Positions 237-24,522 of a stretch of 38,292 nucleotides of DNA are shown piece by piece. The translations under genes and the position numbers were made by a program. Under the pieces are notes generated by a model. That model was not told where the DNA came from. It did not search any database and saw only the letters and a list, made by a program, of their open reading frames with translations. The DNA is from Bacteroidaceae bacterium. GTDB taxonomy: Bacteria > Bacteroidota > Bacteroidia > Bacteroidales > Bacteroidaceae. How positions within the stretch are numbered: the first letter of the stretch is position 1; the number at the start of each line of letters is the position of its first letter. The stretch lies in contig JAFXTO010000042.1 of the NCBI GenBank assembly GCA_017535725.1, forward strand, positions 1-38,292. Direction: 5' to 3'.

Positions 237-254
237 GGAGTACATTTAGAACGA

Positions 255-292
255 TTGCCGAGACCCCGAAAGGAGCCTCGGCGGCGGTCTTT
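255..292 (+). terminator. Truncated copy of the regulator-gene terminator (module 1)
   Basis: This is a near-identical copy of the terminator behind the second TPR/AraC regulator (23671-23714), but its left arm is cut short: only GCCGAG at 257-262 remains to pair with CTCGGC at 277-282, before TCTTTTGT. It marks where homology to module 3 begins, and implies that a regulator gene once lay upstream and has been lost. Confidence 0.6.
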
Positions 293-321
293 TGTCCCCT
301 TTCTGTAGATTTTCCAAATAT

Positions 322-376
322 GATACATATTTTTCCTAAATTGATACATCCGTTTTTCCGGCTCGCCGTACCTTTG
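322..376 (+). promoter_or_regulatory. Module 1 promoter with AraC-type direct repeats
   Basis: GATACA at 322-327 and 343-348 are 21 bp apart start to start. The second lies 20 bp before TACCTTTG at 369-376, a Bacteroidetes -7 box. Two direct half-sites two helical turns apart, abutting the -33 region, fit a directly repeated AraC-family activator site. The same geometry recurs at 13710-13764 and 23741-23795. Confidence 0.65.
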
Positions 377-392
377 CCCCCGATAATCGGCA

Positions 393-467
393 AATGCCAC
401 GCTGGGACGCTTCATCGATGAGAACGAGCGGATGCGCCGGAAGATAGAGCGCGCGGGGATTATTTAA
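393..467 (+). pseudogene. Remnant of the small single-pass membrane protein (module 1)
   Basis: The frame from AAT at 393 to TAA at 465-467 encodes NATLGRFIDENERMRRKIER and then AGII. This is the C-terminal half of the 60-residue protein encoded at 23897-24079. The start codon, the membrane helix and the YQQWQIGDK segment are missing. The deletion joins sequence just after the module promoter directly to mid-gene, so the promoter is intact but no protein can be made. Confidence 0.75.
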
Positions 468-540
468 CAATTGTACCAAATATACTATATTAATGTGTAC
501 TATTGCAACAAAAACAAGAAAAAGCAGTTCACAATGAACG

Positions 541-567
541 TTTTTTGCAGAATAATGCGTACCTTTG
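541..567 (+). promoter_or_regulatory. Leader promoter of giant surface protein 1
   Basis: TACCTTTG at 560-567 is a consensus Bacteroidetes -7 element. TTTTTTG at 541-547 is a plausible -33 element. The flanking bases GCAGAATAATGCG are identical in the module 3 copy (24173-24180). Initiation a few bases downstream would give a leader of about 310 nt before the ATG at 886. Confidence 0.65.
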
Positions 568-831
568 CACCGTGCTACGCGAAATGCGTGGCATACATAG
601 CATCGGAAGCGTTGTGCTTTTTCCACACCGAGAACTTCGACAACTCTCAAGAGAAAATGGAAAAGCAAGGACGTTCTTCCCTTGGTGTTGATTTAATTGG
701 ATGCATTCCATTGACGTCATACAAGGGTGTGAGCTGTTCTTCTAATCTTTTCTCAGGCAGTCGAAGGCCATCGGTGGATTAGTGGACACAGAGTCACACC
801 TTCTTTTGTCGTGCTGTATGGAACAGGAAAC
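568..831 (+). ncRNA. Structured leader RNA, copy 1
   Basis: This stretch is non-coding and is duplicated at 24181-24522 with high identity. Two long-range stems are visible. TGCTTTTTCCA (615-625) pairs with TGGAAAAGCA (658-667). AAGGGTGTGA (723-732) pairs with TCACACCTT (794-802), which is followed directly by a U-rich run (CTTTTGT), so this stem could act as an attenuator. It precedes the 9.5-kb surface-protein gene and probably controls it in cis. I do not recognise it as a known riboswitch. Sequence from 485 to 560 is also part of the duplication. Confidence 0.5.
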
Positions 832-885
832 CAACATACAAGAGAATAACAAATAACAGTATTAATCATAAAAAATTTCACTTTT

Positions 886-3800
886 ATGAAAAGCTTTATT
901 ACTACTACATTTGTGCGGGCTGGCGGATGGCTGGCCGGAGCAAGAAGAGTGAGGGCGGCAATGACGCTGCTCATGGTGCTCACGACCGCCTCGGCGTGGG
1001 CACAGACAGAAGGGCCGTGGACGTACTATTCACATCGCTGGGGTTCCTGCGGCAACAACGATATCCCTAACATACCTTTTGGCGGCCTGGGCAATGCCAC
1101 TGCTTGGAGTAATTACAATCTCTATCTGTACCATGACAGTGACGGCATCGGCTTCACGTCGGATGGAAAATCTGCGTCCAATTCCAAGAATGGCGTATTC
1201 TCTATTTATACGCATACTGAGAATGTTCCGGCTTACACGCGAAAGGTTCTGATATGGAACTATGAATTGAGGGCGAAATCCGACCATTATCAGACCACAG
1301 CCTTATATGCCAGAGACAATCTTGATGCGCTACAGAGCACGTGGGTAGATTTCACTGAGCGATATACAGATGGGAGCGGATCACAGTATCTCTTGAGTCG
1401 CATGACCCAAACTTGGGCGGGGACGAATACGGACGCGTTTACAAGATCCTTCTGGTTTGACAATAGAAGTTCCGGCTCTGCGAAGAACATGACTGTGGCA
1501 TTGTTGCTGACACATGTCATCGGAAACTCCGGCAGTGGTAGATCTGTGCATCAATGGGCCGGTTTCAAGAATATCAGCTACTCTTGGGAGAATTATTACT
1601 ATAAATATATTACCTTCAACAGCAATGGCGGCAGCGGATCCATGTCGAAGCAGACCATTGAGAATAGTGGCAATCTGCAGGCCAACACCCTGACCCGCAA
1701 TGGTTACTACTTCAGTGGATGGAACACCAAGTCAGACGGCAGCGGCACCGCCTATGCCGACAAAGCGACCATCATTGCTAATTCTGATCAGAAAGGTAAT
1801 GTAGAGCTGTATGCACAATGGGTGAAGATAGCGGATGACCTGCAGGCTAATTTCAGTCAAACTGAGCGCAAGGTGACACTGACATGGAAGGTGAAAAAGG
1901 GTCTGCCAAATGGCACATTTTACATTTATCGTAATGGCACGCAGATCAGTTCGCAGTCGTTTACGTCCATTAATAGCGAGTCCGCAGACTTTTCCTATGA
2001 AGATACGAATACAAAAACAGAAACCAATTTCCCTTACGAGACCGATGTCAACTATGATGTCTATTTCGTGTTGAGCGGAGGCTCAATGCGCGATGACTAT
2101 AAAACATCTGTAACGGTGAACACCACGCGAAGGGTTCCGGTGAACAACTTAAATGCCTTTAGACAGAACGACCGCATCGTATTCACTTGGACATCGGACG
2201 GCTATCCCGAAAATTGGGGCAATCAGTTCAAGATTTATGTGGATGACGAAACGGAGCCTATCTATACTATTACGCCGACAGACGGGCAGACGAGTTTCCA
2301 GTGGGAGCACCGCACCACTGACAAGCACAGCGATCGTCAGAGCTTTACAGACGCGACGACTGGTGTGCCTTACACTGAGGAGCCGCTGAACGCCTGCACG
2401 CCACACAAATACCACATCGTGGGTGTCATCGGCGACAAAGTGCTCAGCAATACCAAACCGCTTACCAACCAGGCTATCGGCACGGGCACCCTATTCTACT
2501 CGCTTGATGCCACCAAGGGTACCTATCCCGGCACGGTGAAGCTGCAGTGGCACGTCAATCGGCAAGGCTCCACCGCAGCCAAAACTTACATCGTGGAACG
2601 TCGGCGTGCAGAGAAGGACGACGAGGAGTGGGTGACGCTCTACCGCACGTCGAGCGATGAGGACTACTTGATGTACACCGACGACACACCGCTGCCTGGC
2701 GTCTTCTACAAATACCAAGTGACGGTGCAGGACAAGTGCGACGACGGTACCATCATCCCCAATGATATCACCGACATCGGCTTCGCACAGACAACGGGCA
2801 CCATGAGCGGCCGCATCACCTTCGGGGCGACGGGCAGCTCGGTGGCAAACGTGGATGTGGAGGCCCGCAGGACGGGCGCGTCGGATAATGCAGAGGAGCA
2901 GTACCACGCCATGCGCTTCACCGGCAACAACGGCGCGGTGACGTGGACCTATCCCTCGACGACCTACGCCGCCGGCAAGTTAGCTACAGGCGACTTCACC
3001 ATCCAAATGTGGGTGAACCCCGAGACATTAGGTGAGGCTAAGATGGTGCGCCTGAACGGCGAGACCTGCTACGTGGGTATGGATGCCTACGGCAAGCTGA
3101 CGCTGGTCAACGGCGAGACAACCTATACTTTCGACAATGCCGTGCTGACCGCCGGACAATATAACCACGTGGTGCTGACGCGTAGCGGCTCGACCGTTAC
3201 CGCCAGCGTGGTGGGAACAGACGCTGCCGGTGTGGCCGTGCTGAACAGCAGCACGCAGACCTTGGACGGTGAGTTGACGCTGACCGATGCCGCACAGCTG
3301 ACGTTAGGTCACTTCGTGGGCTATGTGGATGAGTTCCGTCTCTGGACGAAGGCGCTCACCGAGGCCGAAATCCTGGAGAACTACGACCACCTGCTGGTGG
3401 GCAACGAGAAGCAGCTGGAGACGTACTGGACCTTCGACGAGGGCCTGAACACACAGTTCTTCGACTATTCGCGCGACGGTACCGTCTATCACCAGCACCA
3501 CGGTCTTGTTGGCAGCAATGCCCAGCCGTCGAACCTGACACCCACACAGCTGAAGTTGAAGGCCAAGACCGACCGCGACGGCAACTACATCATCCAGGGT
3601 GTGCCGTTCACGGGCGAGGGTACGACCTACGCCGTCATCCCCACCTTGGGCATCCACCAGTTCAATCCGACGCAGCAGTTGCGCTTCGTGGGCAACAACT
3701 CGCTGGTACACAACGGCACTGACTTCACCGACATCTCGTCGTTCCCTGTGCGTGGTACCATCCGCTATGCCAATACCGACTACCCCGTGGAGGGCGTGAA

Positions 3801-6800
3801 CTTCTACGTCGATGGGCAGATCTGCGCCAAGGAGGGCCAGCCCATCACGACGAATGCCTATGGTGAGTACGAAATCTCTGTACCCATTGGCGAGCACTAC
3901 ATCACCGTGCAGAAGCAGGGCCATGAGTTTGCCAACGACGGGCGCTATCCCGCCGACCCGAACAAGACGGGGCTGACGGTGAACTACAACGACGCCGTGT
4001 CGAACCTCGACTTCGAGGACGTGACGCTGGTCACCGTGGCCGGTCGTGTGACGGGCGGCAAGATTGAGGAGGCGAAGCCGCTGGGCTTCGGCGAGAGCGT
4101 GAACAACATCGGCCAGGCCACCATCACTCTGGGCATCGATGGCTATCGCCTGAACGTGGTGCGCAACGTGGAAGGCACCACCGTGAGCTACGACAACAAC
4201 CCGGACGACTTGGCTGTCAGCTCGCCCACGACCGACGTACAGAGCGTGACGGTGCGTCAGGGCGGTGATGCCGACGATGTGAAGAAAATCATCATCAAGA
4301 CCGACCCGCAGACGGGTGAGTTCGCCGCACTGTTGCCGCCCATCGACTACCGCGTGGAGAGCATCGTGATAGAGAGCAACCAGCAGATTACCTTCGACGG
4401 TCTGCCCGTCATCTATGCCAGCGACCCGACGCAGACAAGCACTGATACGCTCGTGACGGACGATGGCACGAAGAAAGAGTTCGACTACGTAGCCAAAATG
4501 ATTCAGAGCTACTACACCGACCCCGTGCTTGAGGTGACACAGAAGGGCCGCACGGACAGCTCGTTCGGTGAGCAGACCTATACCTACAGCGACAAGTTGA
4601 CACCCGAAACGAAGGTGGACCTCTACACTGTGACTGACGGTTCCCCCGTCAGCTACACCTTCGACTACCCGCTGTTCAAACAGCAGAACACCTATATATT
4701 TAATGTGCGTGGTTACGAGACCTACGTTAACAACGACGGCGAAAGTCCCGTTATCTACGAAGTGCCGCTGCGCGACGTACCCGTGACTTTCTCGAACCAG
4801 ATGGGCACAGGCCAGCAGGTGGTCATCGACCCTGAACTGACAGCTGAAGACGACGAGCGCGGCGACGTGGTGGGCGAACCGACTCCCGACCGGGTTACGC
4901 TGGACGAGAACGGCACGGCACAGTATGAATGGATGGCCGGTCTGCCCAACATCACTTGGCCCTACACCCTGTCGCTCAATGCCACCTTCGTGCAGAACGG
5001 CAAGACCTACACGTGGGACGGCGTGAATGCCGACAACAGTTTGGCTGGCGTGGTAATAGGTGCCCTGCCTACGGGTACCAACTTTGTAACCTCCGGCCCC
5101 GACCAGGTGACGATGATCCTGCGCGACCCTGCCGGTTCTGCATCGCAGGCCTACTGGGAGGCTGGCAACACGGTGACAAGCACCGTGACCACCGAGCAGT
5201 CGTTTGGCAGTGAGCGTGAGGAGATGACCCATACGGAGATAGGCGTTGAGCTGACAACATTTACTGGTGCGGGCGTTGGGGCCTTTGCGGGCGTCATCCA
5301 AACTAACAAGCAGATGGCATCGGTCGATATAGGTATTGTTACTGAAATATCGGATGCAACCTCCAACTCGATGACTTTTAGCACCACTACGACCAAGCGC
5401 GTGAGCACCAGCGACCAGCCGGAGTATGTGGGCGCACAGGGTGACGTGTTCATCGGCAACGCCACAAACATCCTCTTCGGCAACGCCCGCAGCGTGGGAC
5501 TGGAGAAGAACGGCGAGAACTACACGTTAGCGGCCATGGACAACTATGTGACGGGAACGGAGTTCAGCACAACGTTCAACTATACGCAGAACTACATCGA
5601 AAACGTCATGATTCCTAACTTCATCAGACTGCGCAACAAATACCTCAGCAAGGGATATGACGAAGAGGGCATGATCTATGCTTCGACTGTCGGTAAGGAC
5701 AACGAAAACTACGGCGCCAAGGGCTATTACACCTGTGACAAGCCTGCCAACGCCACGAAGCCCCTCTATACCGACTCTGTGGCCTACTACAATGAGCAGA
5801 TCAAGAACTGGGAAAGCGTGCTGGCCTATAACGAGGAGATGAAGGTGAAGGCCATCAACAACCGCAAGACGTACATTGACTCGAACCAGAGCTTCGACTC
5901 AGGTTCGTTCATCGAGGCATCAACAACATACACGACGGGCATCACCCAGAGCTATACCACCAACTTCGAAGCCCATGTGCTGTTAGGTTTGGGTACCGAT
6001 ATCACCATCTTCGGACAGGACGTGAACGTCAACGTACAGAACACCGTCTCGTATGGCAACTCCGAGACTGACGAGTATGGCTACGAGCGCACCGTCACCA
6101 CGGGCTACACCTTGATGGAAACGGGTGACGACGACGCGCTGACAGTGGATGTCTATAAGGCTCCCGACGGCATGGGCGCCATCTTTGTGACACGCGGTGG
6201 ACAGACCTCTTGCCCGTATGAGGCAGAGCAGCGCACCAAGTACTACGAGCCAGGCAGGCATGTGATCGCCACCGCCACAATGCAGATTGAGAAGCCTGCC
6301 ATTGCCGTGGAGAATGCTGCCAACCGTGCCGTGGGCGTGCCCGCCGGCAAGAAGGCATCATATAACCTGCTGCTGACCAACGAGAGCGAGACGGGCGAGG
6401 ACTGCTACTTCAGCCTCTTCGCCATCGACGAGACAAACAAGGAGGGCGCCAAGCTGACCGTCAACGGCGATCCCTTTGACAATGGCCGCCGCGTGCTGGT
6501 GCCCGCAGGTGGCACGGTGCGCATGAACCTGGAACTGGCGCAGAACAACACGGGCGGACTGGTCTATGAGGACATCGCCATCGTGCTGGCCTCGGAGTGC
6601 CAGAGCGACCCTGCCAGCACATGGAACGTTATCGGCGACACGGTGCTGATCTCGGCTGAGTTCGTACCTACGAGCACCGACGTGGCACTGCGCATCGACA
6701 ACCGCGTGGTGAACACCTCGACCAAAGGTATGCTGCCACTGACGGTGACGGGCTACGATCCGAACTACGACGGACTGAAGTACATCGCCGTGCAGTATCA

Positions 6801-9800
6801 GGGCGTGGGAGAAAGCACGTGGCACGATGCCCGCAAGTATGTGATGAACGAGCAGGCCATCCTGAATGCTCAGATAGAGGAGGTGCTGCCCACCAACGGC
6901 ATCATCAACCTGAACTACGACATGACCAACGGTGCCGTGTTCCCCGACCGCACGTATAAGTTCCGTGCCCTCTCCGCCCGTACCTACGGCAACGGCGAGG
7001 TGACCAACGCGAGCGATGAGATTCTGGTGGTGAAGGACATGAACCGTCCGAAGCCGCTCGGACAACCACAGCCCACCGACGGCATCCTCTCGGCTGGCGA
7101 CGAGTTGAGCGTGCTCTTCAATGAGACCATCCTCAACGGTGAGCTGACGAAGGACCAGAACTTCCGCGTGACGGGTGTGCTGAACGGCTCCACCGTAGCT
7201 CACCAGACGGCACTGGAACTGGAGAATACAGCACAGACTGCCGCTACCGAAGCTAACATCAACCTCGCCAACAAGGACTTCTCCGTTGATATGTGGGTGA
7301 AGGCCAACGGCGCAGGCACGCTGCTGAGTCACGGCACGGGAACGCAGAAGCTGACCGTAGGCGTGGATGCCGACAGCAAGTTAGTAGTGAAGATTGGCGA
7401 CCAGACCTATACCTCTTTGGAGAATGTACCGCAGAATCAGTGGGCATTCCTGACACTGAGCATGACACAGGACGGCAAGTTGAGCGCCAGTGTAGCCACT
7501 GACGCCACCACCACGACACTGTTCAGCGACAAGGAAGCCGTGGCCTACGAGGGCAACGGTCCGCTCGCCGTGGGTCAGGAGATGACGGGTGCCATGCACG
7601 AACTACTGCTCTGGGATGAGGCCCGCGACGTGACCACCGCCCTGCAGCAGCGTTCCGTGACCAAGACCCCATCGACGCAGGGTCTCATCGGCTACTGGAA
7701 GATGAACGAGGGCGAGGGCACGAGCATACGCGATTATGCCCGCAACCGTCACATGACAATGACTGCCGAGACGTGGCATATCGAAAACGAGAACAAAGCC
7801 GTGACACTCGATGGCTCGCACTATGTGGGTATCAACACCACCGAGATTCCGCCCATGCCGCAGGACGACTATGCCGTGGAGCTGTGGGTGAAGGCAGGAG
7901 AGCAGACTGCTGATGCTCAGTTGTTGCAGTTGGGCGAGGTAGGCCTTAGCCTCGATACCGAGGGTAAACTTCAGTTGGAGAATAAGAATTCTCAACTCTC
8001 AATTGTCAATTCTCCATTAACCGACAACGCCTGGCACCATGTGGCCCTGAGCGTGCTGCGCGGCGGCAATGCCAACGTCTATGTGGACGGTGTGGCCAAG
8101 GCCACCGTGAGTGCCGACAATGTGGGTTCGTTAGGTAGCGACCAGTTGCTCATCGGTGCACGCCGCACCTTGCAGGATGTGCAGAGTTCCGAGGTTCTCT
8201 ATACCTACGACCGTCCTCTGACCGCCACTATTGACGAGGTGCGTGTATGGAACGCAACCATGAACGGCGACCAGCTGAAGAAGCAGCGTAAGGTGCGCCT
8301 CACGGGCACAGAGCCGGGCCTCGTGGCCTACTATCCTTTCGAGGTGAAGACGCTCAACGCACAGAACCAGGTCGTCACCAACGGCAGCGCCGCCGACCTA
8401 GCAGGCAGCAGCTATAAGGCACAACTCAGTGCGCTCGGCGGTTCGCCCGCCGAGGTGGCAACCTTCACCGATGAGGCTCCTGCCCTCCGTGTGAAGCCCG
8501 AGGAGGAGAACGTCAGTTTCACCTTCACCGCTTCGGACAACAAGATTGTGATTGACGTCGACGAGGCACCCGCCCGCATTGAAGGCACGACGCTGAACTT
8601 CACCGTCCGCGACGTGCACGACCAGAACGGCAACCTCTCTGAGCCCGTCAGCTGGAGTGCCTTCGTCAGCCTCAACCCGCTGGCATGGAAGGAGAGTTCT
8701 GTAAGCAGCACCAGCAAAGTGACCGACGGTGCCACCCTCACCGCCACCCTCGTGAACAAGAGCGGACGGCAGCAGGTGTGGACGATGAGTGACCTGCCCT
8801 CGTGGCTCGAGGCAGACATGACCTACGGCGACCTGCAGCCCCTGGCCGAGCAGACCATCACCTTCGCCGTGAGCGAGGCAACGCCCATCGGCAAGTACGA
8901 GCAGACGGTCTATGTGAAGGGCAACGACGGTATCGAGACACCGCTCACGCTGAACATCACCGTGACAGGCAACGTGCCCGACTGGGCTATGAACCCGCAC
9001 GACTTCGAGACATCGATGAACGTCATCGCTGTGCTGAAGAAGGACGGCACGCCCATGACCGACACCGACGATATCATGGCTGCCTTCATCGGCGAGGAAT
9101 GTCGCGGACTGGCTAACGTGGAGTATATTGATGAATATGGCAACTACTATGTCACGATGGATATCTATGGCAACAGCAGCGAGGCCGGACAGGAAGTGAC
9201 CTTCCGCGCTTACGATGCCTCGACGGGAACGGTCTATCCCGTGGTGACGCTGGAGAATAACGAGGCGTTCACCTTCGTTCCGCTCACTCTGATGGGAACC
9301 TATGCCAAGCCTAACGTGTTCATTATCCGAAACATGATAGAACAGGAATTGGAATTGAAGGCTGGTTGGAACTGGGTATCGTTCAACGTTACGGCAGACG
9401 ATATGACAGTGCCGGCACTCTTCGAGAAGATTGCCGACGATGTGGTGACGGTGAAAAGTCAGATGAGTGGATATCGTTATTATGAGAATGGTACATGGGG
9501 TGGAGACCTGACGGGTAATCTCTCCAACACCGAGATGTATGCTGTGCAGATGATAGCCGACCGCAAGTTACGTGTCGTGGGTACCAGCGTCAATACGCCT
9601 GTGTCCGTCCATACAGGTTGGAACTGGCTGGGTTACTATGGTCGTCAGGTGGCTTCGCTCGGTGATGCCTTTGCCGGTATGGAGAAGGAGAATGGTGACA
9701 TCGTGAAGGGCCAGCGTGGCGTAACCTACTGGGATGTGAACAACTCAAAATGGTTAGGTTCACTGAAGATGATAGAACCCGGCAAGGGTTATCAGCTGAA

Positions 9801-11561: not shown

Positions 11562-11574
11562 TGAACAATTTTTG

Positions 11575-13608: not shown

Positions 13609-13642
13609 GAAAATCCCCCATTTCATCGATAAAATGGAGCCC

Positions 13643-13685: not shown

Positions 13686-13709
13686 CGGAAATGCAAGTTT
13701 TGCGAAATT

Positions 13710-13764: not shown

Positions 13765-13822
13765 CCCCCGAAAATCGGCATATAGCCAGACAAATTGTAA
13801 ATTGTAAATCGTCAAATAGTAA

Positions 13823-14547: not shown

Positions 14548-14566
14548 AATTAATATTCCTATAATT

Positions 14567-17500
14567 ATGAAAAGAATCTTTCGGAAAACAGAGTTTATTC
14601 ACAGGGCAGCGATAATACTGCTCCTGCTTGTGACCTCCATAACCGTACAGGCGGTCTCGGATAAAGAAATCGTGGCCTACCGAAGTCATCGGCCCATCGG
14701 CCACATAGAAAGCATCGAAGCGAAGCATGGATCCCTTATAGTCAAGGGGTGGGGACTGGACTTGGATGGCTATCACTCAACCAATGTGTCTATCATTCTG
14801 AAACAGAATGGTACGAAGAAGTACGAATTTGTGTCAGAGACCACCGAATTTCGCTACAGCTTCAGCGGCAACGCTTTTTTCAGGGGCTATCACGGGTTCA
14901 CCTTGAAGGGCGAGAGGGTGAAACCGGGCGATTACCAGCTTTCTGGAATTGTGCGTAACTCAGGGCAGCCACATAGAGATATGCCGATGACGTTCGAAAT
15001 GGACGGTGTCGATCCATATACTGTTGACCTAATTCAAGTGACGACCATAGAGAAGCCCATCACCATCCTGCCGTATGTAGAGCAGGTCACCTTCGACTGC
15101 AACTACGAAGGCGGCACCAATCCGGATCCTCTGTTAATATGCGATGATGCATGGACCTATTTACCCACCAACAATGTTTCCCGTCCGGGCTATACCTTCG
15201 TCTGCTGGACTCCCAGCAGTGTAAGGGGCGAAAGTGTCACGGCGAAGGCCCATTGGTTGCCTGGAACCGGTACGAAGGAAGACCCGTGGCGAATCACTTG
15301 TCAGGAAGACTGGGATAGCTTCGTCCTTATGTGTTCCGAGTCAACAGATGTTACACATCCCTCAAAATCGTCGAAGGTGCCACACCCCGTCCCTGACCCT
15401 AATTCGCACGTCAGGCTTGAGATGGACGTCACCATGGGGAGCAAAGGTATATTGGGAAAATTTATGGGAGAGTTCGACGGCAATGGGCACACCATTACCC
15501 TCAACAACCCATATTCAGCCCCGTTCTGGGCAGCTCACGATTGCTATATTCACAACCTGACGGTGAATGGTTCTATTACCCCCGGAGGTGCAAACAACGA
15601 CACCATGGGTGGGCTTGTTTATCAATTTTCACCAAAAGGCGGAGGATACCAGAATAGCGGCGAAAGCATAGTGGAAGACTGTGTAGTCAGTGTTGACCTT
15701 AAACCAAACTACAGAGATGCCGTCTCTTTAGGCGGTATTTTGGGCAAGGTAAGTTATAATGTGAATGGCAAAGTGATTCTTCGGAATTGCATCTTCAATG
15801 GCACCTTGCCCAGCTCCAATATCCAAATGGCCGGCATGGTGTCTAAAACCTATTTCAAAAGTACAACTTATAGTAATTGTATTGAATACGAGAACTGCTT
15901 CTTTGCGCCAAAGAAGGTGGGGACAGAACCCCTATACACCTTCAGCGATACTTATCTCGAATCCAGCCGTGGTATGTACTACACCATAGCCGGTACCAAT
16001 ATCCAAGGCGAGCAGGTCTTTGCAGAACTGCCGTCCGGCGGTGTATCTGCCATCCTCTCGGCTGCTGACGGTACTCAGTACTACCTACCTCAGAGCAACG
16101 TCAGTTTCTCCGGCCTGAACAATTATTATGTTCACACGGGTTCGCCCATCGCCATCAGCTATGGCGTCAGCCGCAACGGTTCTGACCTGGAAGTGAACGA
16201 CTATACGGCTGTCATCAAGAATGAAGCGGGCGAAACCGTGACCTCCCTACAAGATATAGGTCAGTACAGGCTTGAAGTCACCATTCCCGACGAAGGTACA
16301 TACACCCGTCTCTTCTATGTGAGAGCTCCGCTGACAATGGACGGCGACGTGCATCTGATCAACAATATGACCGACTGGGTGACCTTTACCGAGAACTTGG
16401 CTGACTACCGTACTGCGTCACTGCGGCTCAACGCCGACATCACCACGGATACGATGGTGGGCCGCGAGGACTGCAAGTTCAGTGGCACTTTCGACGGCAA
16501 CGGCCACACGCTGACCTACAACTATACCTGTTATAACACAATATATGATCCTGCCGAGGACGGGCGTGCTCCATTCCGATACATCGAAGGTGCCACTATC
16601 TGCAACCTCACCGTGGCGGGAACCACCGTCAGCACGGGGCGTGAAATGGGCGGCTTAGTGGCTTACGCCTACGGCAATAACAACATCACCAATTGCATCG
16701 TGCAGGCATCGCTCATCAGCCGCATAGGCGGCGATGCCACCAATGGCGGTTTCATTGCCCACGCGAAAGATTATGGTACGAACTCTTTCAGCGGTTGTGT
16801 ATTCAATGGCTATCTGATTAGCGGGCCCTCCTGTCGTTGCAACGGCGGCTTCGTGGGATGGAGCAACGGCCATCTGAGTTTCTCCGACTGTCTCTTCGAC
16901 CCCGTCTGTGTGACGATGGCTGCCAACGAAGGCAGCACCTTCGCCCGTGGTTTTGGAGTCGAGGAAAGCTCCTTCAGCAATACTTTCTACACCACCGCCT
17001 TTGGTGCAGCACAGGGCATACAAGCCTGTATGTCGCCGCAGGATTGCGTATGTGAGAAAAAGACAATGGCCAACGGCAGCGAGATTTACGCTGTCCGCGG
17101 CACTTCCATTGTGGGACTGGCGGATGCTTACCCATACAACGACGGTGCAGCGGTCACCGTCAGCGGTTTTGCCGTCCAAAATAACGGCGAGCAGCTTCCC
17201 GCCGACAAATACAGTGTCACCTTCCGCAACGAGGCGGACGAGGTGGTCGATGCCCCCACGGAGGTGGGCGTCTATACGCTGACCGTCACTGGTTATGAAA
17301 ACTTTGGCTACTATGGCTCTTTGTCGAAGACATTCTGGGTGGCAAAGACGCTCAGCACCGATGCCAACGGTTTCTACCTCATCCGCGACAATGACGACTG
17401 GCTTTCATTGGACTGCAACATCAAGTCAAATCCCGCTTTTGCCGGTAGCAAAGTGAAACTGGCCAACGACCTAAGCATCACCACCATGATTACCGACGAG

Positions 17501-20500
17501 GACCATCACTTCAAAGGCATCTTCGACGGCGGCGGTCATACGCTGACCGTCAACCTGCAAGGCACGGGTATGGCGGCACCCTTCCTGTATGTCGATAACG
17601 CCACCTTCACCAACTTGCACGTCGCCGGTACTATCCGCGCCACAAACGATGAAGCATTCTTAGGGGGTGTCGTGGCATTCTCGATAGGTAATCACGACTT
17701 CATATCCTGCCGCAGCAGCGTCGATATCGGGTGTACGAACATGGGCTGTGCAGGTGGTTTCGTGGGCTTTGCCGGCAATCGCGAGAACCATGCCATCTCG
17801 ATGACCGACTGCCTCTTCGACGGCATTCTCAGGGGCAAGGTGGGATACGCCAGCGGATTCATTGGCTACCATTACACCGAGCGGCCCGGCACCACCGTCA
17901 GCATGACCAACTGTCTGATGAACGGTGCGACAGATGCCTCGCTTGGTGCCATTGTCATTGCCTGCCCGTTCTATGGTTATCCCAACCTTCCCACACCAGA
18001 GTACTACACGCTCACCAACAGCTACTACACGTCGGAGACGATGCCCAACTGCAATAGGTTCAATGGCGACCAGGGCAGCTACACTGCGCTATATGGCACC
18101 GAGCTTAAGGACCTGTTAGGCGATGGCTGGACGCTGGACGCCAGCGACGAGGTCGTTCCCGCCTCGGCATCGTTCTACACGAGGAGCATCACCATTGCCG
18201 ACGGCATCACCCACGGCAAGGTGGAATGTGCGGTCACAGGCATCCCCGGCCAGCCAGTCACCGTGACCCTCACCCCCGAAGAGGGTTACGAGACGACTGC
18301 CATCAGTTATAACGATGGTGACGTTCATCCCATAACACCTGTAAATGGCGTTTACAGCTTCAACATGCCAGATGCCGATATCACCATCAGCGTCACTTTC
18401 AGCCTCAACCCGAATGCCGTCGGCTATGTGGCCTACAACACGGAGACGAAGGCGTTTGAGAACCATCGCCACATCAGCCCCACAGCCATCACAAGCGCAA
18501 CGACTACCTTGGGAACTGTCGGCAAGGAGACCTGGTACATGGTGAACAGCAATGTCACCGTCAGCAGCCGCATGACAACCCGCGGCACCGTCCACCTTAT
18601 TCTCTGCGACGGCAAAACGCTGACCGCCGAGAAAGGCATCACCGTAAGCGACAATAACCAACTCGCCATCTACGGACAGGAGGCTGGCACAGGTGCTATC
18701 GTGGCCACCGGAGCCAACAGTTCTGCCGGCATCGGTTTGGAGGGTAATGATAGTTATAGCTCCAAGGTGGGAGGCGTCATCACCATCCATGGCGGGCATA
18801 TCACAGCCCAAGGTGCTGCTTGGTCGGCCGGCATTGGCGGTGGCGTGAACTGTGGCGGCGGTACGGTTCTTATCTATGGAGGTTCAACATACGCCTCAAC
18901 CGCTCAGGAGAACAGCGGAGACGCAGTAGCCATTGGACGTGGAAGCGGCTGGGATGACTCTGGCACAAGGACCCTCGTCGATGGTGTGTGCGTAAAGGTG
19001 GGCAGCAGTACCACACCAGTTGACTATGCTGCCCGCAACAGCAGTTTTACCAACAAAAACCTCACCGTGGAGCGTTGCATTGAGCACAACTGGGTTGAGA
19101 ACCTCTGCACCTACTGCGGTCTTCAGCACCACTATACGGTTACCTACGTTGCCAACGCTGATGTCATCGGCGATGTGCCACCAGAAGAGACGATTCTCAT
19201 TGGCGGCGACATGACGGTTACCGTCAGCGGCAACACGGGCGAAATGGAACGCACGGGTTACACCTTTGCGGGTTGGAACACGGCAGCTGACGGTAGCGGC
19301 ACCAAATATGCCGTGGGGAGCACCTTCACCATCAGCGAGACGGTAACACTCTACGCCCAGTGGACGCCCATATCTTATCTCATCGGCTATGACCTCGGCA
19401 GCGGCACGGCTACAGGCAACCCTGATAGCTACACCATCGCCGATGGAGATATAACCCTCAACAACCCCGCCCGCGAAGGCTACGACTTCAAGGGCTGGAC
19501 AGGTACTGACCTCTACGATGCTTCGATGAGTGTCACCATCCCCGCCGGTTCTATGGGTAACCGCTCCTACACCGCCACATGGGAATGGAGAATACCGCGC
19601 CCCTACGGCATGGAGATTGACCGCGACTATCGGCCGGATGAAGCCGGGTATTACTACATCAACATGCCGGGAAATGAAAATAAAATCTATCAATATAATG
19701 AGGAAACTGGTGAAGATGAATGCATAGAAACCATCCCTGCCGAACATAATCCCAAAACCATAAACATCACCGAAGGATTCCTCTATAGTTTCAAGGTGTA
19801 TGACAGTGGCGGAAAGAATTACGATTACCAAGAATCTTGGTGGGATTGGAATCAAGATTACAATAATCATGATTCTGGGGATATGTACAGCACCCTCACA
19901 CTGACCTGTCCCGAAGGCTATGTGTTCAGTGTGCAAGGCACAATCGACACTCCCGATGACTGTGATTATCTGACCATCTACGACGGTGCTTCTACAAGCG
20001 GTGAGACACTTCTTGACGAAGCTTGGGGAGAAAGGAACGTTGGCCCCATCATCAGTTCCAGCAACAGCATCACATTCTACTTTGTGCATGACGGTCAGTA
20101 TTGCGAAGACGGCTTAGACCTGACTGTGGCAGTCATAGACCCGCCGACCGTCATCTCTCTGGTTGAAAACAGTCTCACTCCTTACGGTGCCACAGTAAGC
20201 TGGACGGGAATCTCAGACAGCTATATTCTGGAGATTGCCGAGGGTACACCTGATGGAGAAGAATCCGCACTGGATTGGACTACTGTGGACGATGATGCCG
20301 CCAGCCCTTATACCTTTGACAATCTTAAACTCGAGACCACATACTCGGTGCGGGCGACTGGCGTTATCGAAGGTGTGCAAGGCGATCCAAGCAACATCCT
20401 CAGCTTCACCACGCTGGGAAAATGTCCGGTGCCGACCAATCTTGACATCGTCGAAAACAGCCTCACCGCTTATAGCGCCACCGTGAACTGGAAGGGCTTC

Positions 20501-21841
20501 TCTGACAACTACAACATCAAGTTAAGGGAAGTTAATTACCTCGTCTATGCAGACTTCGAGACAGGTGACCTTAGCCAAGCCACGTTCACTACCACAGGCG
20601 ACTATCCTTGGACGGTGGTGGAAAACAACCATAACGGTTCCTTGTGCGCCAAGAGTGCTTCTGGTAATGATAACGAAACATCTGCCTTGGAGATTCAGAT
20701 AACCTTAGAAGCTGAAAGAGTCCTTACCTTCTCGGCGAAGGTTTCATCGGAAGAAGGTTGGGATAAAGCTTACTTCTATATCGATGAAGACGTTAAGATC
20801 GATGGCATTTCAGGCGACGGCGAATGGATTGATTATTCATATTCCCTTACCGCCGGTACTCACACACTCTGCTGGTATTATACCAAGGACGACAGCTATG
20901 GCAATAACGACGATTGCTTCTACGTGGATGACATACGACTCTTAGATGGATCTACGGAGGTGGGCATTTATAGGTCAGACACCGAAAGCTACACCCTCAC
21001 TGGTTTGAGCGCTGGGTCAACCTACGAAGTTCAGGTGCAAGCCGACGCCGGTACCGATGGCACCAGCCAATGGAGCAGCCCAATTATGTTCACCACCAAT
21101 TTCGACCTCATATTGGCTAACGCTGCGGACAACAGCGATGCCATCCGTATGGCAGCCACCAACGGAGGTGAATATAAGGTCACGCTCGCTGGCCGCACGC
21201 TCTGGAAGGACGGTGACTGGAACACGCTGTGCCTGCCCTTCAACCTCGGCAACCCACAAGCTGAAGAGGGCCATTACTTCGACGGCACGCTGCTGGAAGG
21301 TGCTACGGTGAAGACGCTCGAAAGCACGGACTTCAGCGACGACGGCACACTGACGATGAACTTCGTCGATGTCCACGAAATCGCTGCCGGCACACCCTAC
21401 CTCGTGAAGTGGACCAGCGGCGAGAACGAGGTGAACCCCGTGTTCACGGGTGTTACCATCAGCAATGCCACCGCAAACGTCTCGACCAACTACGTGGACT
21501 TCGTGGGCACTTACGGTTATATGGGCTTCAACGCCGACGACCGCAGCATCCTCTTCCTCGGCACAAAGAACACCCTCTACTATCCGCAGAGCGGTGCCAG
21601 CATCGGATCCTGCCGCGCCTACTTCCAGTTGAAGGGCCTCAACGCTGGAGACATACAGCATGACGTGAAGATGTACTTCGGAGAGGAGGAGGCTACGGGA
21701 ATAAGCCTCACCCCCAACCCCTCTCCTGAAGGCGAGGGGAGAACCGCGGCGTGGTTCGACCTGAACGGTCGCCGACTAAACGACAAGCCGACATCGAAGG
21801 GATTGTACATCTATAATGGAAGAAAGGTCGTCATAAATTGA
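14567..21841 (+). CDS. Giant exported surface protein 2 with T9SS sorting domain (2424 aa)
   Basis: A signal peptide (about 1-29) precedes a beta domain (about 40-155). Then come three long repeats, each starting with a DxDW-type segment and containing FDGNGHT/FDGGGHT and GLUG-like GGLV/GGFV motifs (about 225-480, 590-830, 940-1200). Next are an InlB B-type repeat (about 1520-1605; GYTFAGWNTAADGSGTKY), a second divergent one to about 1670, a CUB-like domain (about 1745-1860; CDYLTIYDG), fibronectin-III-like domains, a MAM/jelly-roll-like segment with DFETGDLSQATF, and a module shared with the 400-residue protein of module 1 (GRTLWKDGDWNTLCLPF). The protein ends with FDLNGRRL...GLYIYNGRKVVIN, a T9SS signal. 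One GC-rich palindrome is read in frame just before it as LTPNPSPEGEGR. It is likely a surface adhesin or glycan-interacting protein. Confidence 0.85.
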   Translation: MKRIFRKTEFIHRAAIILLLLVTSITVQAVSDKEIVAYRSHRPIGHIESIEAKHGSLIVKGWGLDLDGYHSTNVSIILKQNGTKKYEFVSETTEFRYSFSGNAFFRGYHGFTLKGERVKPGDYQLSGIVRNSGQPHRDMPMTFEMDGVDPYTVDLIQVTTIEKPITILPYVEQVTFDCNYEGGTNPDPLLICDDAWTYLPTNNVSRPGYTFVCWTPSSVRGESVTAKAHWLPGTGTKEDPWRITCQEDWDSFVLMCSESTDVTHPSKSSKVPHPVPDPNSHVRLEMDVTMGSKGILGKFMGEFDGNGHTITLNNPYSAPFWAAHDCYIHNLTVNGSITPGGANNDTMGGLVYQFSPKGGGYQNSGESIVEDCVVSVDLKPNYRDAVSLGGILGKVSYNVNGKVILRNCIFNGTLPSSNIQMAGMVSKTYFKSTTYSNCIEYENCFFAPKKVGTEPLYTFSDTYLESSRGMYYTIAGTNIQGEQVFAELPSGGVSAILSAADGTQYYLPQSNVSFSGLNNYYVHTGSPIAISYGVSRNGSDLEVNDYTAVIKNEAGETVTSLQDIGQYRLEVTIPDEGTYTRLFYVRAPLTMDGDVHLINNMTDWVTFTENLADYRTASLRLNADITTDTMVGREDCKFSGTFDGNGHTLTYNYTCYNTIYDPAEDGRAPFRYIEGATICNLTVAGTTVSTGREMGGLVAYAYGNNNITNCIVQASLISRIGGDATNGGFIAHAKDYGTNSFSGCVFNGYLISGPSCRCNGGFVGWSNGHLSFSDCLFDPVCVTMAANEGSTFARGFGVEESSFSNTFYTTAFGAAQGIQACMSPQDCVCEKKTMANGSEIYAVRGTSIVGLADAYPYNDGAAVTVSGFAVQNNGEQLPADKYSVTFRNEADEVVDAPTEVGVYTLTVTGYENFGYYGSLSKTFWVAKTLSTDANGFYLIRDNDDWLSLDCNIKSNPAFAGSKVKLANDLSITTMITDEDHHFKGIFDGGGHTLTVNLQGTGMAAPFLYVDNATFTNLHVAGTIRATNDEAFLGGVVAFSIGNHDFISCRSSVDIGCTNMGCAGGFVGFAGNRENHAISMTDCLFDGILRGKVGYASGFIGYHYTERPGTTVSMTNCLMNGATDASLGAIVIACPFYGYPNLPTPEYYTLTNSYYTSETMPNCNRFNGDQGSYTALYGTELKDLLGDGWTLDASDEVVPASASFYTRSITIADGITHGKVECAVTGIPGQPVTVTLTPEEGYETTAISYNDGDVHPITPVNGVYSFNMPDADITISVTFSLNPNAVGYVAYNTETKAFENHRHISPTAITSATTTLGTVGKETWYMVNSNVTVSSRMTTRGTVHLILCDGKTLTAEKGITVSDNNQLAIYGQEAGTGAIVATGANSSAGIGLEGNDSYSSKVGGVITIHGGHITAQGAAWSAGIGGGVNCGGGTVLIYGGSTYASTAQENSGDAVAIGRGSGWDDSGTRTLVDGVCVKVGSSTTPVDYAARNSSFTNKNLTVERCIEHNWVENLCTYCGLQHHYTVTYVANADVIGDVPPEETILIGGDMTVTVSGNTGEMERTGYTFAGWNTAADGSGTKYAVGSTFTISETVTLYAQWTPISYLIGYDLGSGTATGNPDSYTIADGDITLNNPAREGYDFKGWTGTDLYDASMSVTIPAGSMGNRSYTATWEWRIPRPYGMEIDRDYRPDEAGYYYINMPGNENKIYQYNEETGEDECIETIPAEHNPKTINITEGFLYSFKVYDSGGKNYDYQESWWDWNQDYNNHDSGDMYSTLTLTCPEGYVFSVQGTIDTPDDCDYLTIYDGASTSGETLLDEAWGERNVGPIISSSNSITFYFVHDGQYCEDGLDLTVAVIDPPTVISLVENSLTPYGATVSWTGISDSYILEIAEGTPDGEESALDWTTVDDDAASPYTFDNLKLETTYSVRATGVIEGVQGDPSNILSFTTLGKCPVPTNLDIVENSLTAYSATVNWKGFSDNYNIKLREVNYLVYADFETGDLSQATFTTTGDYPWTVVENNHNGSLCAKSASGNDNETSALEIQITLEAERVLTFSAKVSSEEGWDKAYFYIDEDVKIDGISGDGEWIDYSYSLTAGTHTLCWYYTKDDSYGNNDDCFYVDDIRLLDGSTEVGIYRSDTESYTLTGLSAGSTYEVQVQADAGTDGTSQWSSPIMFTTNFDLILANAADNSDAIRMAATNGGEYKVTLAGRTLWKDGDWNTLCLPFNLGNPQAEEGHYFDGTLLEGATVKTLESTDFSDDGTLTMNFVDVHEIAAGTPYLVKWTSGENEVNPVFTGVTISNATANVSTNYVDFVGTYGYMGFNADDRSILFLGTKNTLYYPQSGASIGSCRAYFQLKGLNAGDIQHDVKMYFGEEEATGISLTPNPSPEGEGRTAAWFDLNGRRLNDKPTSKGLYIYNGRKVVIN

Positions 21842-21989: not shown

Positions 21990-23654
21990 ATGCGACACTT
22001 CCTACATTATTCATTAGTCGTCGTATTCGCCCTGCTGACCATCGCCACCGCCTGCACCGACCGCAAGGCTGAAGACAACGTGAGCGAGGTGGTGCGCACG
22101 GCACGTGCAGATCGCAAACAGGCCATTGAATACGACGGGCTGTGGCAGATGCGGCTGGCGGAGATGTATTACAGGAAGGCTTACGAGGCACTGCAGGACG
22201 ACCCGTCGCAGGACTGGTTCACCTACGGCGACGCTGGCTACAGGTACGCGTTTCTTACATGCAACCGTGGTGATGTTGAAGGGGCATTGGCCATCGTAGC
22301 GAAAATCATGGATCGGATTGAGAAGAATCCCAAGACCGAGCCCGAGGTGCCGCCAATAGTCGTGTCAGCGCTCCTCTCGCTCATGGCCGAGTGCCAGATG
22401 CAGCTGTCGATGACCGACGAGGCCAAGCAGACATTCGCCCGTTCCTACGAGGAGGTGAAGAAGGCCTACGGCGGTGAGTGCCGAGGCAAATTCAATATGG
22501 TCATCGCATGTTATGACCTTTTCCAGTCCTTCCTACAGATGGACGACTACGACGCGGCAGAGCGATGGATGCACCGTGGCGAAGAGGAATTTGCGGTCTG
22601 GGAGGAGATGACCATGAAGGGCAAGGCCGAGAACAGACGATGGCGGAGCGACTCCCTCCTGTTAGAGGAATACCGCGGGCACAGAGCGCTCAGCCGGACG
22701 CTTCTCCTGCAGGCAACGGGTCACGCCCAAGAAGCTGCCGCCACGTATGACGCCATCCCTCGCAGCCGTATCTTCAATCCGCTGACCATCTCCAGCGCAG
22801 CACGCTACCTGATGGCTGCCGGGCGCTACGACGAAGCCGCCGACATGTATGCCCGTCTCGACACCACCTACGCTGCCGCCGACAGCGCACGTATGACGTT
22901 TGATAAGATCAGCGAATGTCTCGCTCCGCGCTATGCGGCCAATCGCAAGGCCGGTGTCATCGCCGAAGCCTTAGCCACCGCCGACAAGATGAGCGCAGCC
23001 ATCGACTCTGCCCTCGTGTGGCAGAAACGGAACGATGCCGCTGAGCTGGCAGTCATCTACCAGACGCACGAAAAGGATATGCAACTGGCGAACCAGCGAT
23101 TCACCATTTCCCTGCACCGCCTTTTCGCCGTCGCCCTCGTCGTCATCCTCCTGCTCATAGCCTGGCAGCTTTGGCGCTTCCATATATATAATAAGGTATT
23201 GTCTGCGAAGAACCGCCACCTGCTGGCCAAGATTGAGAAGCAGGAGCGAAAAAAGCTGCAGGCCATCGAACAGTTGAATGCCGAACCCGAGGAAAGCCTC
23301 ACCGCCAGTCAGCAATTCTACCGCCGCCTCTGCACCATCATGTCTGAACAGCGACCCTACACCAATGAGGCGCTGAACCGCGATACGCTGGCACAGCTTC
23401 TCGGCACCAATGCCAAGTACGTGGAGCAGGCCATCCGCGAGTGTTCCGACGGAGAGACCGTCGGTGACTTCATCACCCGCTACCGTCTGGAGTATGTGAG
23501 CCATCAGCTGAGAACCACCGACGATTCCATCAGCCTTATCGGTGAGCTATCGGGCATTCCCAACCGTGCCACCCTCGCCCGCCTCTTCCGCAACGCCTAC
23601 GGCATGACTTGCAGCGAGTACCGACAAGCCGTCAAGTCGAAAGCAAAAAAATAA
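21990..23654 (+). CDS. Membrane-spanning TPR/AraC-family regulator 2 (554 aa)
   Basis: A paralogue of the protein at 11908-13608 with the same layout: an N-terminal signal with a possible lipobox (LLTIATAC), TPR-like helices to about 370 (AEMYYRKAYEALQDDPSQDW), a membrane helix at about 374-396, a charged linker and a C-terminal AraC-type double helix-turn-helix (about 445-554; NRATLARLFRNAYGMTCSEY). The second recognition helix differs from regulator 1 (ATLARLFRNAYG versus PTFYRLFSETYG), as expected if the two read different half-sites. It closes module 2 and lies immediately before the GATACA promoter of module 3. The ATG at 21990 gives a full signal sequence. Confidence 0.8.
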   Translation: MRHFLHYSLVVVFALLTIATACTDRKAEDNVSEVVRTARADRKQAIEYDGLWQMRLAEMYYRKAYEALQDDPSQDWFTYGDAGYRYAFLTCNRGDVEGALAIVAKIMDRIEKNPKTEPEVPPIVVSALLSLMAECQMQLSMTDEAKQTFARSYEEVKKAYGGECRGKFNMVIACYDLFQSFLQMDDYDAAERWMHRGEEEFAVWEEMTMKGKAENRRWRSDSLLLEEYRGHRALSRTLLLQATGHAQEAAATYDAIPRSRIFNPLTISSAARYLMAAGRYDEAADMYARLDTTYAAADSARMTFDKISECLAPRYAANRKAGVIAEALATADKMSAAIDSALVWQKRNDAAELAVIYQTHEKDMQLANQRFTISLHRLFAVALVVILLLIAWQLWRFHIYNKVLSAKNRHLLAKIEKQERKKLQAIEQLNAEPEESLTASQQFYRRLCTIMSEQRPYTNEALNRDTLAQLLGTNAKYVEQAIRECSDGETVGDFITRYRLEYVSHQLRTTDDSISLIGELSGIPNRATLARLFRNAYGMTCSEYRQAVKSKAKK

Positions 23655-23670
23655 AGGACTACCAGAAAGG

Positions 23671-23714
23671 CCGCCGCCGAGACCCCGAAAGGAGCCTCGG
23701 CGGCGGTCTTTTGT
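23671..23714 (+). terminator. Terminator of regulator 2
   Basis: CCGCCGCCGAG (23671-23681) pairs with CTCGGCGGCGG (23696-23706), followed by TCTTTTGT. A truncated copy lies at 255-292. Confidence 0.8.
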
Positions 23715-23740
23715 CCCCTTTCTGCAGATTTTCCAGATAT

Positions 23741-23795
23741 GATACATATTTTTCCTAAAATGATACATCCGTTTTTCCGGCTCGCCGTACCTTTG
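23741..23795 (+). promoter_or_regulatory. Module 3 promoter with AraC-type direct repeats (GATACA)
   Basis: GATACA at 23741-23746 and 23762-23767 (21 bp apart) is followed 20 bp later by TACCTTTG at 23788-23795. The sequence is nearly identical to the module 1 promoter region at 300-376. Confidence 0.7.
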
Positions 23796-23825
23796 CCACC
23801 GATTTAACAATCGATGGCGAGAACG

Positions 23826-23870
23826 GGCTGCGCCTCAGCAAAGAGCGAGCTCTCTGCATTCGGTTTGCAC
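23826..23870. repeat. Interspersed palindromic element, copy 1
   Basis: GGCTGCGCCTCAGCAA, a central GAGCGAGCTC palindrome and a TTCGGTTTGCAC end. The same framework recurs at 24203-24250. Here it lies in the 5' untranslated region of the small membrane protein gene. Confidence 0.6.
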
Positions 23871-23896
23871 CGTCCTTGCCCCAAAATTCATACAAT

Positions 23897-24079
23897 ATGG
23901 AAACATCATTTGTTATAGCAGTGGCATTGGGGGTAGCCATCGTGGTGGTTATTCTGATATTGGTGGGAACCATCGTCTATCAGCAGTGGCAGATTGGTGA
24001 CAAGAACGCCACGCTGGGTCGCTTCATCGACGAGAACGAGCGGATGCGCCGGAAGATAGAGCGCGCGGGGATTATGTAA
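23897..24079 (+). CDS. Small single-pass membrane protein (60 aa), module 3
   Basis: It starts METSFVIAVALGVAIVVVIL, one hydrophobic helix, then the conserved tail YQQWQIGDKNATLGRFIDEN followed by ERMRRKIERAGIM. It is a paralogue of 13823-14017 and the parent type of the remnant at 393-467. I chose the ATG at 23897 over one seven codons upstream because the membrane helix then begins at residue 4, as in the paralogue. No giant gene follows, so this copy is an orphan. Confidence 0.7.
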   Translation: METSFVIAVALGVAIVVVILILVGTIVYQQWQIGDKNATLGRFIDENERMRRKIERAGIM

Positions 24080-24150
24080 CCTTTTGAAGCGACTATAATA
24101 TATAATGTGTACGATAGCAACCCGAAATAAGAAAAAACAGCTCACAATGA

Positions 24151-24180
24151 ACGTTATTCGCAGAATAATGCGTACCTTTG
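24151..24180 (+). promoter_or_regulatory. Leader promoter, module 3 copy
   Basis: TACCTTTG at 24173-24180 has the same flanks (GCAGAATAATGCG) as the module 1 promoter at 560-567. It now drives only the orphan leader copy. Confidence 0.55.
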
Positions 24181-24522
24181 CACGCCAAAGCGTGCGAAAC
24201 TCGGCTGCGCCTCAGCAATTGGAGCAAGCTCCATTGCGTTCGGCTTGCACGAGCTTTGCAAGCGAAAACGTGCCTGAACTGGCACGCATTGCATCGGAAG
24301 CGTTGTGCTTTTTCCACACCGAGAACTTCGACAACTCTCAAGAGAAAATGGAAAAGCGAAGACGTTCTTCCCTTGGTGTTGATATCATTGGACCCGTTCC
24401 ATTGACATCATACAAGGGTGTGAGCTGTTCTTCTAATCTTTTCTCAGGCAGTCGAAGGCCATCGATGGATTAGTGGACATAAGTTCACACCTTCTTTTGA
24501 TGTGCATTATAGAACAGGAAAC
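24181..24522 (+). ncRNA. Structured leader RNA, copy 2 (orphaned)
   Basis: A second copy of the leader at 568-831. Both long-range stems are kept: 24306-24316 with 24349-24358, and 24414-24423 with 24485-24493, followed by CTTTTG. A 78-nt longer 5' section holds a palindromic element (24203-24250). Homology to copy 1 stops at GAACAGGAAAC (24522), where truncated integrase sequence begins, so no downstream gene remains for it to regulate in cis. Confidence 0.5.
24203..24250. repeat. Interspersed palindromic element, copy 2
   Basis: It has the same ends as the copy at 23826-23870 (GGCTGCGCCTCAGCAA and TTCGGCTTGCAC) with a different central palindrome (GGAGCAAGCTCC). It is inserted in the leader of module 3 and absent from the equivalent place in module 1. 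Confidence 0.6.

Follow-up and report, generated by a model that had tools for sequence, protein, structure and literature searches.

The contig JAFXTO010000042.1 of a Bacteroidaceae bacterium (assembly GCA_017535725.1) carries, between positions 257 and 24,522, two giant genes for secreted-type proteins among repeated promoter, small-gene and leader blocks, and it raises the question of what unit is repeated there and how its cargo is controlled. To our knowledge, it is unclear how newly acquired surface and secreted genes come under control in Bacteroidales. The stretch analysed, called the window here, is 38,292 nt long and is the complete contig C54 of a metagenome-assembled genome (MAG) of 2.9 Mb in 72 contigs, estimated as 76% complete; genome-wide counts for the source organism refer to this sequence. 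Relatives were surveyed in 139 genomes of the genus, 399 of the family (30 genera), and 295 of the order (184 genera), and labels such as G092 or L056 are our own handles. The best explanation, with a probability of roughly 0.6, is a tandem array of secretion cassettes headed by a regulator (R) and a small membrane protein (S), with an independent layer of leader RNA in modules 1 and 3.

The locus is composed of three tandem modules, each with a head before exchangeable secreted-protein cargo, in different states of completeness and all on the forward strand. Module 2 is complete and consists of R1 (11908–13608), S2 (13823–14017, 64 aa), P177 (14014–14547), and the giant G2 (14567–21841). Module 1 has a truncated S, a leader (591–812), and the giant G1 (886–10362) followed by X400 (10359–11561), and is without R. 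Module 3 has R2 (21990–23654), S3 (23897–24079, 60 aa), and a leader (24282–24503), and no cargo gene follows on the same strand. A reverse-strand open reading frame (ORF) of 148 aa (24507–24953), with its stop inside the leader tail, marks the place where the cargo of module 3 is missing; it has no match in Pfam, NCBIfam, or the plasmid collection.

Modules 1 and 3 form a single collinear alignment from the terminator-like hairpin behind R2 to the leader end, with two large gaps: module 1 is without about 200 nt that contain the N-terminal half of S, and module 3 has an additional palindromic insert ahead of the leader. Identity is 97% between the promoter blocks (257–384 and 23676–23803), 95% between the S tails (393–468 and 24005–24080), 92% between the leader promoters (512–570 and 24125–24183), which are conserved in relatives as well, and 91% between the leaders (589–831 and 24280–24522); the leader common to both modules, claimed in a preliminary description of this DNA, is thereby confirmed. 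Each of the two promoter blocks contains the terminator-like hairpin, a tandem operator with TGATACAT twice (21 bp apart; 321–349 and 23740–23768), and a promoter, of TAnnTTTG type in module 1. The third promoter block of that description, in module 2 (13609–13822), is analogous in layout and not near-identical, and its half-sites differ. Similarly, two of its three small membrane-protein genes are intact, and the third is a remnant of about 25 C-terminal codons (390–468, with the match at 390–464) recognized in the alignment to module 3 and in the S search. A small palindromic element (GGCTGCGCCTCAGCAA...) was found twice in module 3 (23826–23880 and 24199–24257) and also in heads of G075 and G114; in module 1 the second copy is absent and the first falls inside the deleted region.

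The order of the unit was read from relatives, where R is followed by S and then by variable cargo. R stands directly before S in G123, G022, G089, G075, G010 (C111), G092, and others, and all six genomes from outside the genus with a true S (G264, G301, G312, G357, G478, and G485) have one S directly after R. As R comes first in relatives, R1 and R2 open modules 2 and 3; they do not close modules 1 and 2, as would follow from the order small protein, giant, regulator proposed before. Their recognition as paralogues stands (31% identity, E 1e-68), R2 being the best of 14 matches of R1 in the genome. The unit recurs and is duplicated in tandem, as had been supposed: there are four S copies on one contig of G092 and two each in G075, G011, and G357, those of G011 sitting between three giants. 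The expected co-occurrence was found too: a strong R is present in 22 of the 139 genus genomes, and these include all 10 that bear S (hypergeometric probability 1.2e-9, inflated by the relatedness of the genomes and by an R model built partly from these loci). Among the 30 R loci read in the genus, S was located within 1.5 kb downstream in 12, and one more has a weak match.

Cargo behind the heads is diverse. In relatives it includes C10 peptidase with I69 inhibitor, C11 clostripain, M4, M13, S41, and C2 peptidases, a MACPF protein, small lipoprotein-like proteins, and giants, with proteases frequent; a giant adhesin is therefore not the defining component, and adhesin is one cargo type at most. 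P177, a companion protein, is present behind different heads in the window, G010, and G089. G1-like giants stand behind an R1-type head in G089, behind other heads in G010 and G011, and directly behind the leader in the window and L056. Occurrence of the same proteins behind differing heads supports the predicted reshuffling of cargo. In G123 and G089, R1-S occupies apparently one chromosomal address, with a matching upstream ORF run (judged from lengths and termini) that we take to be rnhB and suf genes; one has M13 and M4 peptidases with other proteins as cargo, and the other P177 and a G1-like giant.

The window giants G1 (3158 aa; Laminin_G_3 and List_Bact_rpt domains, Pfam matches below cut-off being disregarded) and G2 (2424 aa; List_Bact_rpt, InlB-like, and fn3 domains) are secreted-type proteins, and X400 (400 aa) has its C-terminal ~258 residues in common with G2 (40%). 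The two giants had been described as being of the type IX secretion system (T9SS) type; their size holds, and no model of a T9SS sorting domain in Pfam or NCBIfam matched G1, G2, or X400. Their C-termini resemble sorting tails by eye, and the T9SS core protein GldM/PorM, the one component searched, is encoded in the genome (547.7 bits, cut-off 180). The fold predicted for P177 from its single sequence was uninformative.

The gap between R and S is occupied by tandem half-sites 21 bp apart. When 24 head regions were compared with themselves in 14-bp words, shift 21 ranked with the best in 18, whereas in 60 composition shuffles the number of such regions averaged 2.2 and never exceeded 5; the regions are partly homologous and so do not count as independent trials. 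Heads of R2 and of its orthologues from G075 and G033 have the half-site TGATACAT; GAGAC predominates in the rest, with GAAAC in G478 and TTTTGCGGCT, unrelated to the others, in G485. Unrelated half-sites at the same spacing argue for constraint. Module 2 of the window has an exact pair of GAGACA 21 bp apart upstream of the S2 promoter (13709–13736; no mismatch, 0.07 expected by chance). A scan of the 2.9 Mb for the R2 operator, tolerating at most two mismatches, identified modules 1 and 3 and no other place, and the reversed pattern used as control had no match. R2 is therefore the likely controller of both modules, although module 1 is at a distance of about 22 kb. The proposal of a self-regulating unit is supported to this extent, that is, at the level of operator architecture.

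Regulator R is predicted to be a one-component regulator in which tetratricopeptide repeats (TPR), a transmembrane (TM) segment, and an AraC domain follow each other, with a sensor half weakly similar to FimS. The helix-turn-helix (HTH) domain HTH_18 is at the C-terminus of both R1 and R2, above the Pfam cut-off (E 3e-16 and 6e-11). Cys20 is invariant in all 19 aligned R rows and was read by eye as a lipobox. Residues 265–417 of R2 match positions 245–393 of the NCBIfam FimS model with E 5e-4 and 18.4 bits, far under its cut-off of 600. An AlphaFold model of R1, computed from two rows, is all-helical with one long helix across the TM segment. No histidine kinase domain was identified in R1 or R2 by Pfam. 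In L039 (3452–5527), an R2-like sensor half is fused, in place of the AraC domain, with a SpoIIE phosphatase.

Small protein S has 60–64 aa, one TM segment, a short charged tail, and no Pfam match; S2 and S3 are 58% identical. In the source genome it is found in three places, all in this array, a fourth match (E 0.31) lying inside an AraC regulator. A search of the 399 family genomes with an S alignment matched 18 genomes: eight with a true S, two with an S-like gene, one with a fragment containing a stop, and seven with a match in a long ORF. All seven of these fall in the membrane and juxtamembrane segment of the ORF; six of the ORFs have an AraC HTH and five have TPR matches, the ORF without AraC having TPR only. 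The search was genome-wide, so its specificity for membrane segments of regulators is informative. In appearance, S is the membrane and juxtamembrane part of a related regulator encoded as a separate gene; most likely it associates with R in the membrane and modulates its activity. Identification of S as FtsL was rejected, the NCBIfam match being far under cut-off.

The leader is a structured RNA of about 220 nt, separate from the head, with compensatory changes. Both copies in the window are more stable than their shuffles (z −4.3 and −3.9). The loop of a 5' hairpin and the apical loop of a 3' hairpin are complementary over 7 bp, a kissing interaction seen in five sequence versions and in 33 of 34 sequences, the last count being partly selected because the first leader model included the kissing helix. 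In the alignment of the 34 sequences this helix is 99.6% paired, with both sides changing in five of the seven pairs. The second model, made without the kissing pairs, gave a run of at least 7 in 18 of 19 order-level sequences, with further sequence versions and L167 as the failure; the summed complementarity was 132 versus a shuffled mean of 85.7, reached by 0 of 2000 shuffles. For the whole 22-pair structure, the covariation score was reached by 0 of 500 shuffles and the number of pair types by 3 of 500, and slid controls collapse.

A second pair of stems covaries as well (columns 96–101 with 178–183 and 107–110 with 167–170) and is antiterminator-like; columns 168–170 belong both to it and to the extended 3' hairpin, which prevents the two from forming in full at the same time. 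The 3' hairpin is terminator-like and can be formed in all eight of the first copies, at −29.7 to −32.6 kcal/mol. The stretch between the leader and the start codon is complementary to the terminator arm, with runs of at least 5 in 30 of 53 cases (shuffled mean 15.3, maximum 23). A rod as the only structure was rejected; it is retained as one conformation, part of which, according to the 34-sequence alignment, is the kissing helix and the alternative to the terminator-like stem. Transcription attenuation is the most likely role of such a leader.

By DNA similarity the leader was detected in 4 of the 139 genus genomes. A pattern scan of named genomes found it on six contigs, three of them overlapping with these four genomes; the six are MAGs labelled Prevotella, Prevotellaceae, Bacteroidaceae, or Bacteroidales, three of them from stomach compartments of sheep or goat. 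The covariance model from eight copies recognized it in at least 83 of 399 family genomes and 18 of 30 genera (E 0.01), and the second model, from 34 copies, in at least 46 of 295 order genomes and 35 of 184 genera (E 1e-5); the E-values are rough, and the counts are lower bounds because scoring was limited to the five or seven best candidates of each genome. Six of the first eight copies adjoin R or S (two in the window, and one each in G092, G033, L056, and L057), those of G121 and RUG107 do not, and neither R nor S is within about 1.5 kb in any of 29 family-level and 19 order-level loci. These counts do not support the leader as a part of the cassette, and a specificity for adhesin cassettes was rejected on the same basis. 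It is also not a known Rfam family: the window and 20 loci searched against Rfam 15 at gathering score gave tRNA only, and a permissive search of window positions 1–900 and nine loci gave no match above chance on the leader. One leader compared by blastn had no match in the plasmid or phage collection, and a plasmid- or phage-borne repeat was rejected. A coding function was rejected too; the closest copies share an open frame (window 24105–24473), and in RUG107 and G121 the frame from the conserved ATG stops within a few codons and is broken by indels, as judged by eye.

The position of the leader points to a 5' leader with its own promoter. Upstream, the motif TAnnTTTG stands no further than 60 nt from the leader in 28 of 29 loci of the family set (control windows 45 of 1260) and in 16 of 19 of the order set (control windows 21 of 868). 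On the same strand, an ORF with ATG start and at least 80 aa begins no more than 220 nt downstream in 26 of 29 family and 12 of 19 order loci (controls elsewhere 35 of 236 and 32 of 164; divergent 3 of 28); with a limit of 40 aa, the counts are 28 of 29 and 14 of 19. Ten downstream proteins were scanned: five are above the Pfam cut-off (FRG, radical SAM/SPASM, zinc ribbon, DUF805, and SHOCT), two have weak and three no matches, and no pathway common to the ten was seen. A 5' leader that gates transcription is the most economical reading, less firmly at the order level. Three leaders from different genera (L104, L105, and L170) stand 66–285 nt behind an ORF of ~195 aa that, judged by eye, resembles short tyrosine recombinases. 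On G790:C8, two leader copies (72493–72712 and 72862–73071) lie on one strand about 150 bp apart. Downstream of R in L145 and L133, the leader promoter stretch (AACAGCTCACAATGAACG...) or a close variant is found without the leader RNA.

Taken together, these features suggest the following mechanism. R would be an inner-membrane protein with lipobox-like N-terminus, TPR-like sensor region, one membrane helix, and cytoplasmic AraC domain. Its binding sites would be the two half-sites, spaced 21 bp apart, directly behind the R gene, and R bound there would activate the promoter of S and of the cargo that follows; R2 could act on module 1 in the same way through the operator present there. S, similar to regulator membrane segments in general, would pair with R in the membrane and tune it, and cargo genes would be swapped behind the constant head. 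In modules 1 and 3, the leader with its own promoter would add a second, independent layer: it may form either the antiterminator-like stem or the terminator-like hairpin whose loop kisses the 5' hairpin, helices evident from covariation, and the two conformations would gate transcription into the cargo through termination.

Several points weigh against this reading, in addition to the relatedness and selection noted with the counts above. Of the 30 R loci, 17 are without S within 1.5 kb downstream; one of these has no downstream sequence and three have merely 186–1014 nt, S is located 2–3 kb further on in G072 and G096, and some of the loci retain tandem repeats. There is no R directly before the second, shortened S of G357 or the S-like gene of G487 (in G438 the contig terminates at its S-like gene). 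Shift 21 is not the best in six of the 24 head regions, namely window module 2, which misses by score yet has the exact pair, one copy of G092, the first S of G075, G264, G010 C111, and G072. Most TPR matches of R1 and R2 are below the Pfam gathering cut-offs, the R1 model has low confidence (predicted local distance difference test, pLDDT, 58.7), and hhalign matched S to the segment of cassette R weakly (probability 59%). On the side of the RNA, default folds of the eight leaders gave five rods and three structures with the 3' hairpin, the U-rich tail of the terminator-like hairpin is short, and an ATG ORF of at least 40 aa is missing from the downstream window of 5 of the 19 order-level loci. 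Alternatively, R might control something else and simply sit in a hotspot of surface genes, S being a companion of the cargo, such as a secretion or quality-control helper. In agreement with this, some S copies have no adjoining R, those of G011 preceding giants directly and those of G092 preceding other cargo, and many typed cargo proteins come from secreted-enzyme families; however, the solo S copies of G092 still have tandem GAGAC half-sites, S directly follows R in six of six non-genus genomes, and S resembles membrane segments of regulators, and we regard this explanation as unlikely. Another possibility is that ordinary surface genes without functional linkage were recently duplicated and then decayed, which would account for module 1 without R and most of S and for module 3 without cargo. 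It is very improbable, considering that the head recurs in other genera with different cargo and that the 21-bp spacing is maintained while half-site sequences differ.

For the leader, the alternative is a stand-alone small RNA with promoter and terminator that acts in trans, the downstream gene being incidental. Its own promoter motif, the terminator-like 3' end, the module 3 copy without a gene after it, the diversity of downstream genes elsewhere, and the order-level loci without an ORF all fit such an RNA. It has more in its favour than the alternatives for the head, and we still consider it rather unlikely, because same-strand ORFs follow the family-level leaders far above both the control and the divergent count (26 of 29 versus 35 of 236 and 3 of 28), and the complementarity of the post-leader stretch to the terminator arm goes beyond chance (30 of 53, shuffled maximum 23). 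Regulator-headed cassettes with an independent, probably attenuating leader are preferred. A more ambitious joint reading is put forward tentatively, with doubt outweighing confidence: the leader could be a Bacteroidales-wide RNA class absent from Rfam 15, a portable on/off gate before unrelated accessory genes, that occurs here together with a head containing a regulator-derived tuning peptide of 60 aa. The RNA would combine kissing between 5' hairpin and terminator-like loop with a third element before the start codon, and the gated genes would include surface proteins, radical SAM genes, and FRG and zinc-ribbon proteins. If this were true, cargo could be swapped while control is kept.

Other features of the window lie mostly outside the array. 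The mfd gene (26156–29890) has several in-frame palindromic inserts at 27070–27910 that encode stretches such as SPLPNRGGAGGG, and inserts similar in appearance are in the C-terminal linkers of X400 and G2. Beside tRNA-Asp, three 118-bp units are arranged in tandem (25460–25890), each of which seems to repeat the 3' end of the tRNA gene; integrating elements could leave such traces. An integron-like cassette array would have an integrase and recombination sites between its cassettes; the repeated blocks here are promoter, S, and leader, and Pfam recognized no integrase among the window ORFs scanned, a part of all ORFs, no search specific to attC being made. Between two ORFs at 32954–33263, tandem arrays of a 9-bp (ATCTAGCCC) and a 7-bp (CTCTAAA) unit are adjacent.

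Among known systems, FimS-FimR of Porphyromonas gingivalis is comparable, and FimS is described as a TPR sensor kinase required for fimbriae (PMC11053733). There, a membrane-tied periplasmic TPR sensor controls a cluster of genes for surface structures (PMC11053733), an arrangement that R may share. In R, the sensor chain itself carries the output, an AraC DNA-binding domain, no kinase was found, and the cassette has in addition a 60-aa partner gene and exchangeable cargo. Control of surface genes by a TPR sensor is thus known; among the papers listed in the literature searches, none dealt with an AraC-fused version that has a small partner and a 21-bp operator, or with this leader. With the AraC/XylS family R shares the HTH_18 domain and direct-repeat half-sites about two helical turns apart; R is membrane-tethered with a TPR-like sensor region, in contrast to the soluble ligand-binding domain of that family. 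Hybrid two-component systems (HTCS) of Bacteroides combine kinase, receiver, and AraC domains in one membrane-sensor chain. The membrane sensor and AraC-type output in one chain are similar in R, but Pfam recognized no histidine kinase or receiver domain, and hence no HTCS-type chain, in R1 or R2. The constant head, with tethered sensor, operator, and membrane peptide before exchangeable cargo, is a testable answer to the question of how acquired genes are controlled, and both head and leader could be tested in cultivable gut relatives.

The RNA is the more surprising half of the finding. It covaries strongly, has no Rfam entry, and was detected in 83 or more of the 399 genomes of the family and in 46 or more of the 295 of the order, and it could be a regulatory layer of accessory genes missed by annotation. 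Two candidate RNAs of Bacteroidetes, HMP2_1881 (108 bp) and HMP2_4205 (132 bp), are reported near radical SAM and TPR genes, respectively (PMC8040213). A radical SAM gene likewise follows leader L109, and similar N-termini follow L119 and L156. One of the two candidates may be a fragment of the leader. Attenuating leader RNAs and riboswitches resemble the leader in their 5' position, own promoter motif, mutually exclusive covarying stems, and terminator-like 3' hairpin; the leader differs from them in having no Rfam 15 match, in the lack of a common pathway among the ten downstream proteins, and in the kissing of its 5' hairpin with the terminator-like loop.

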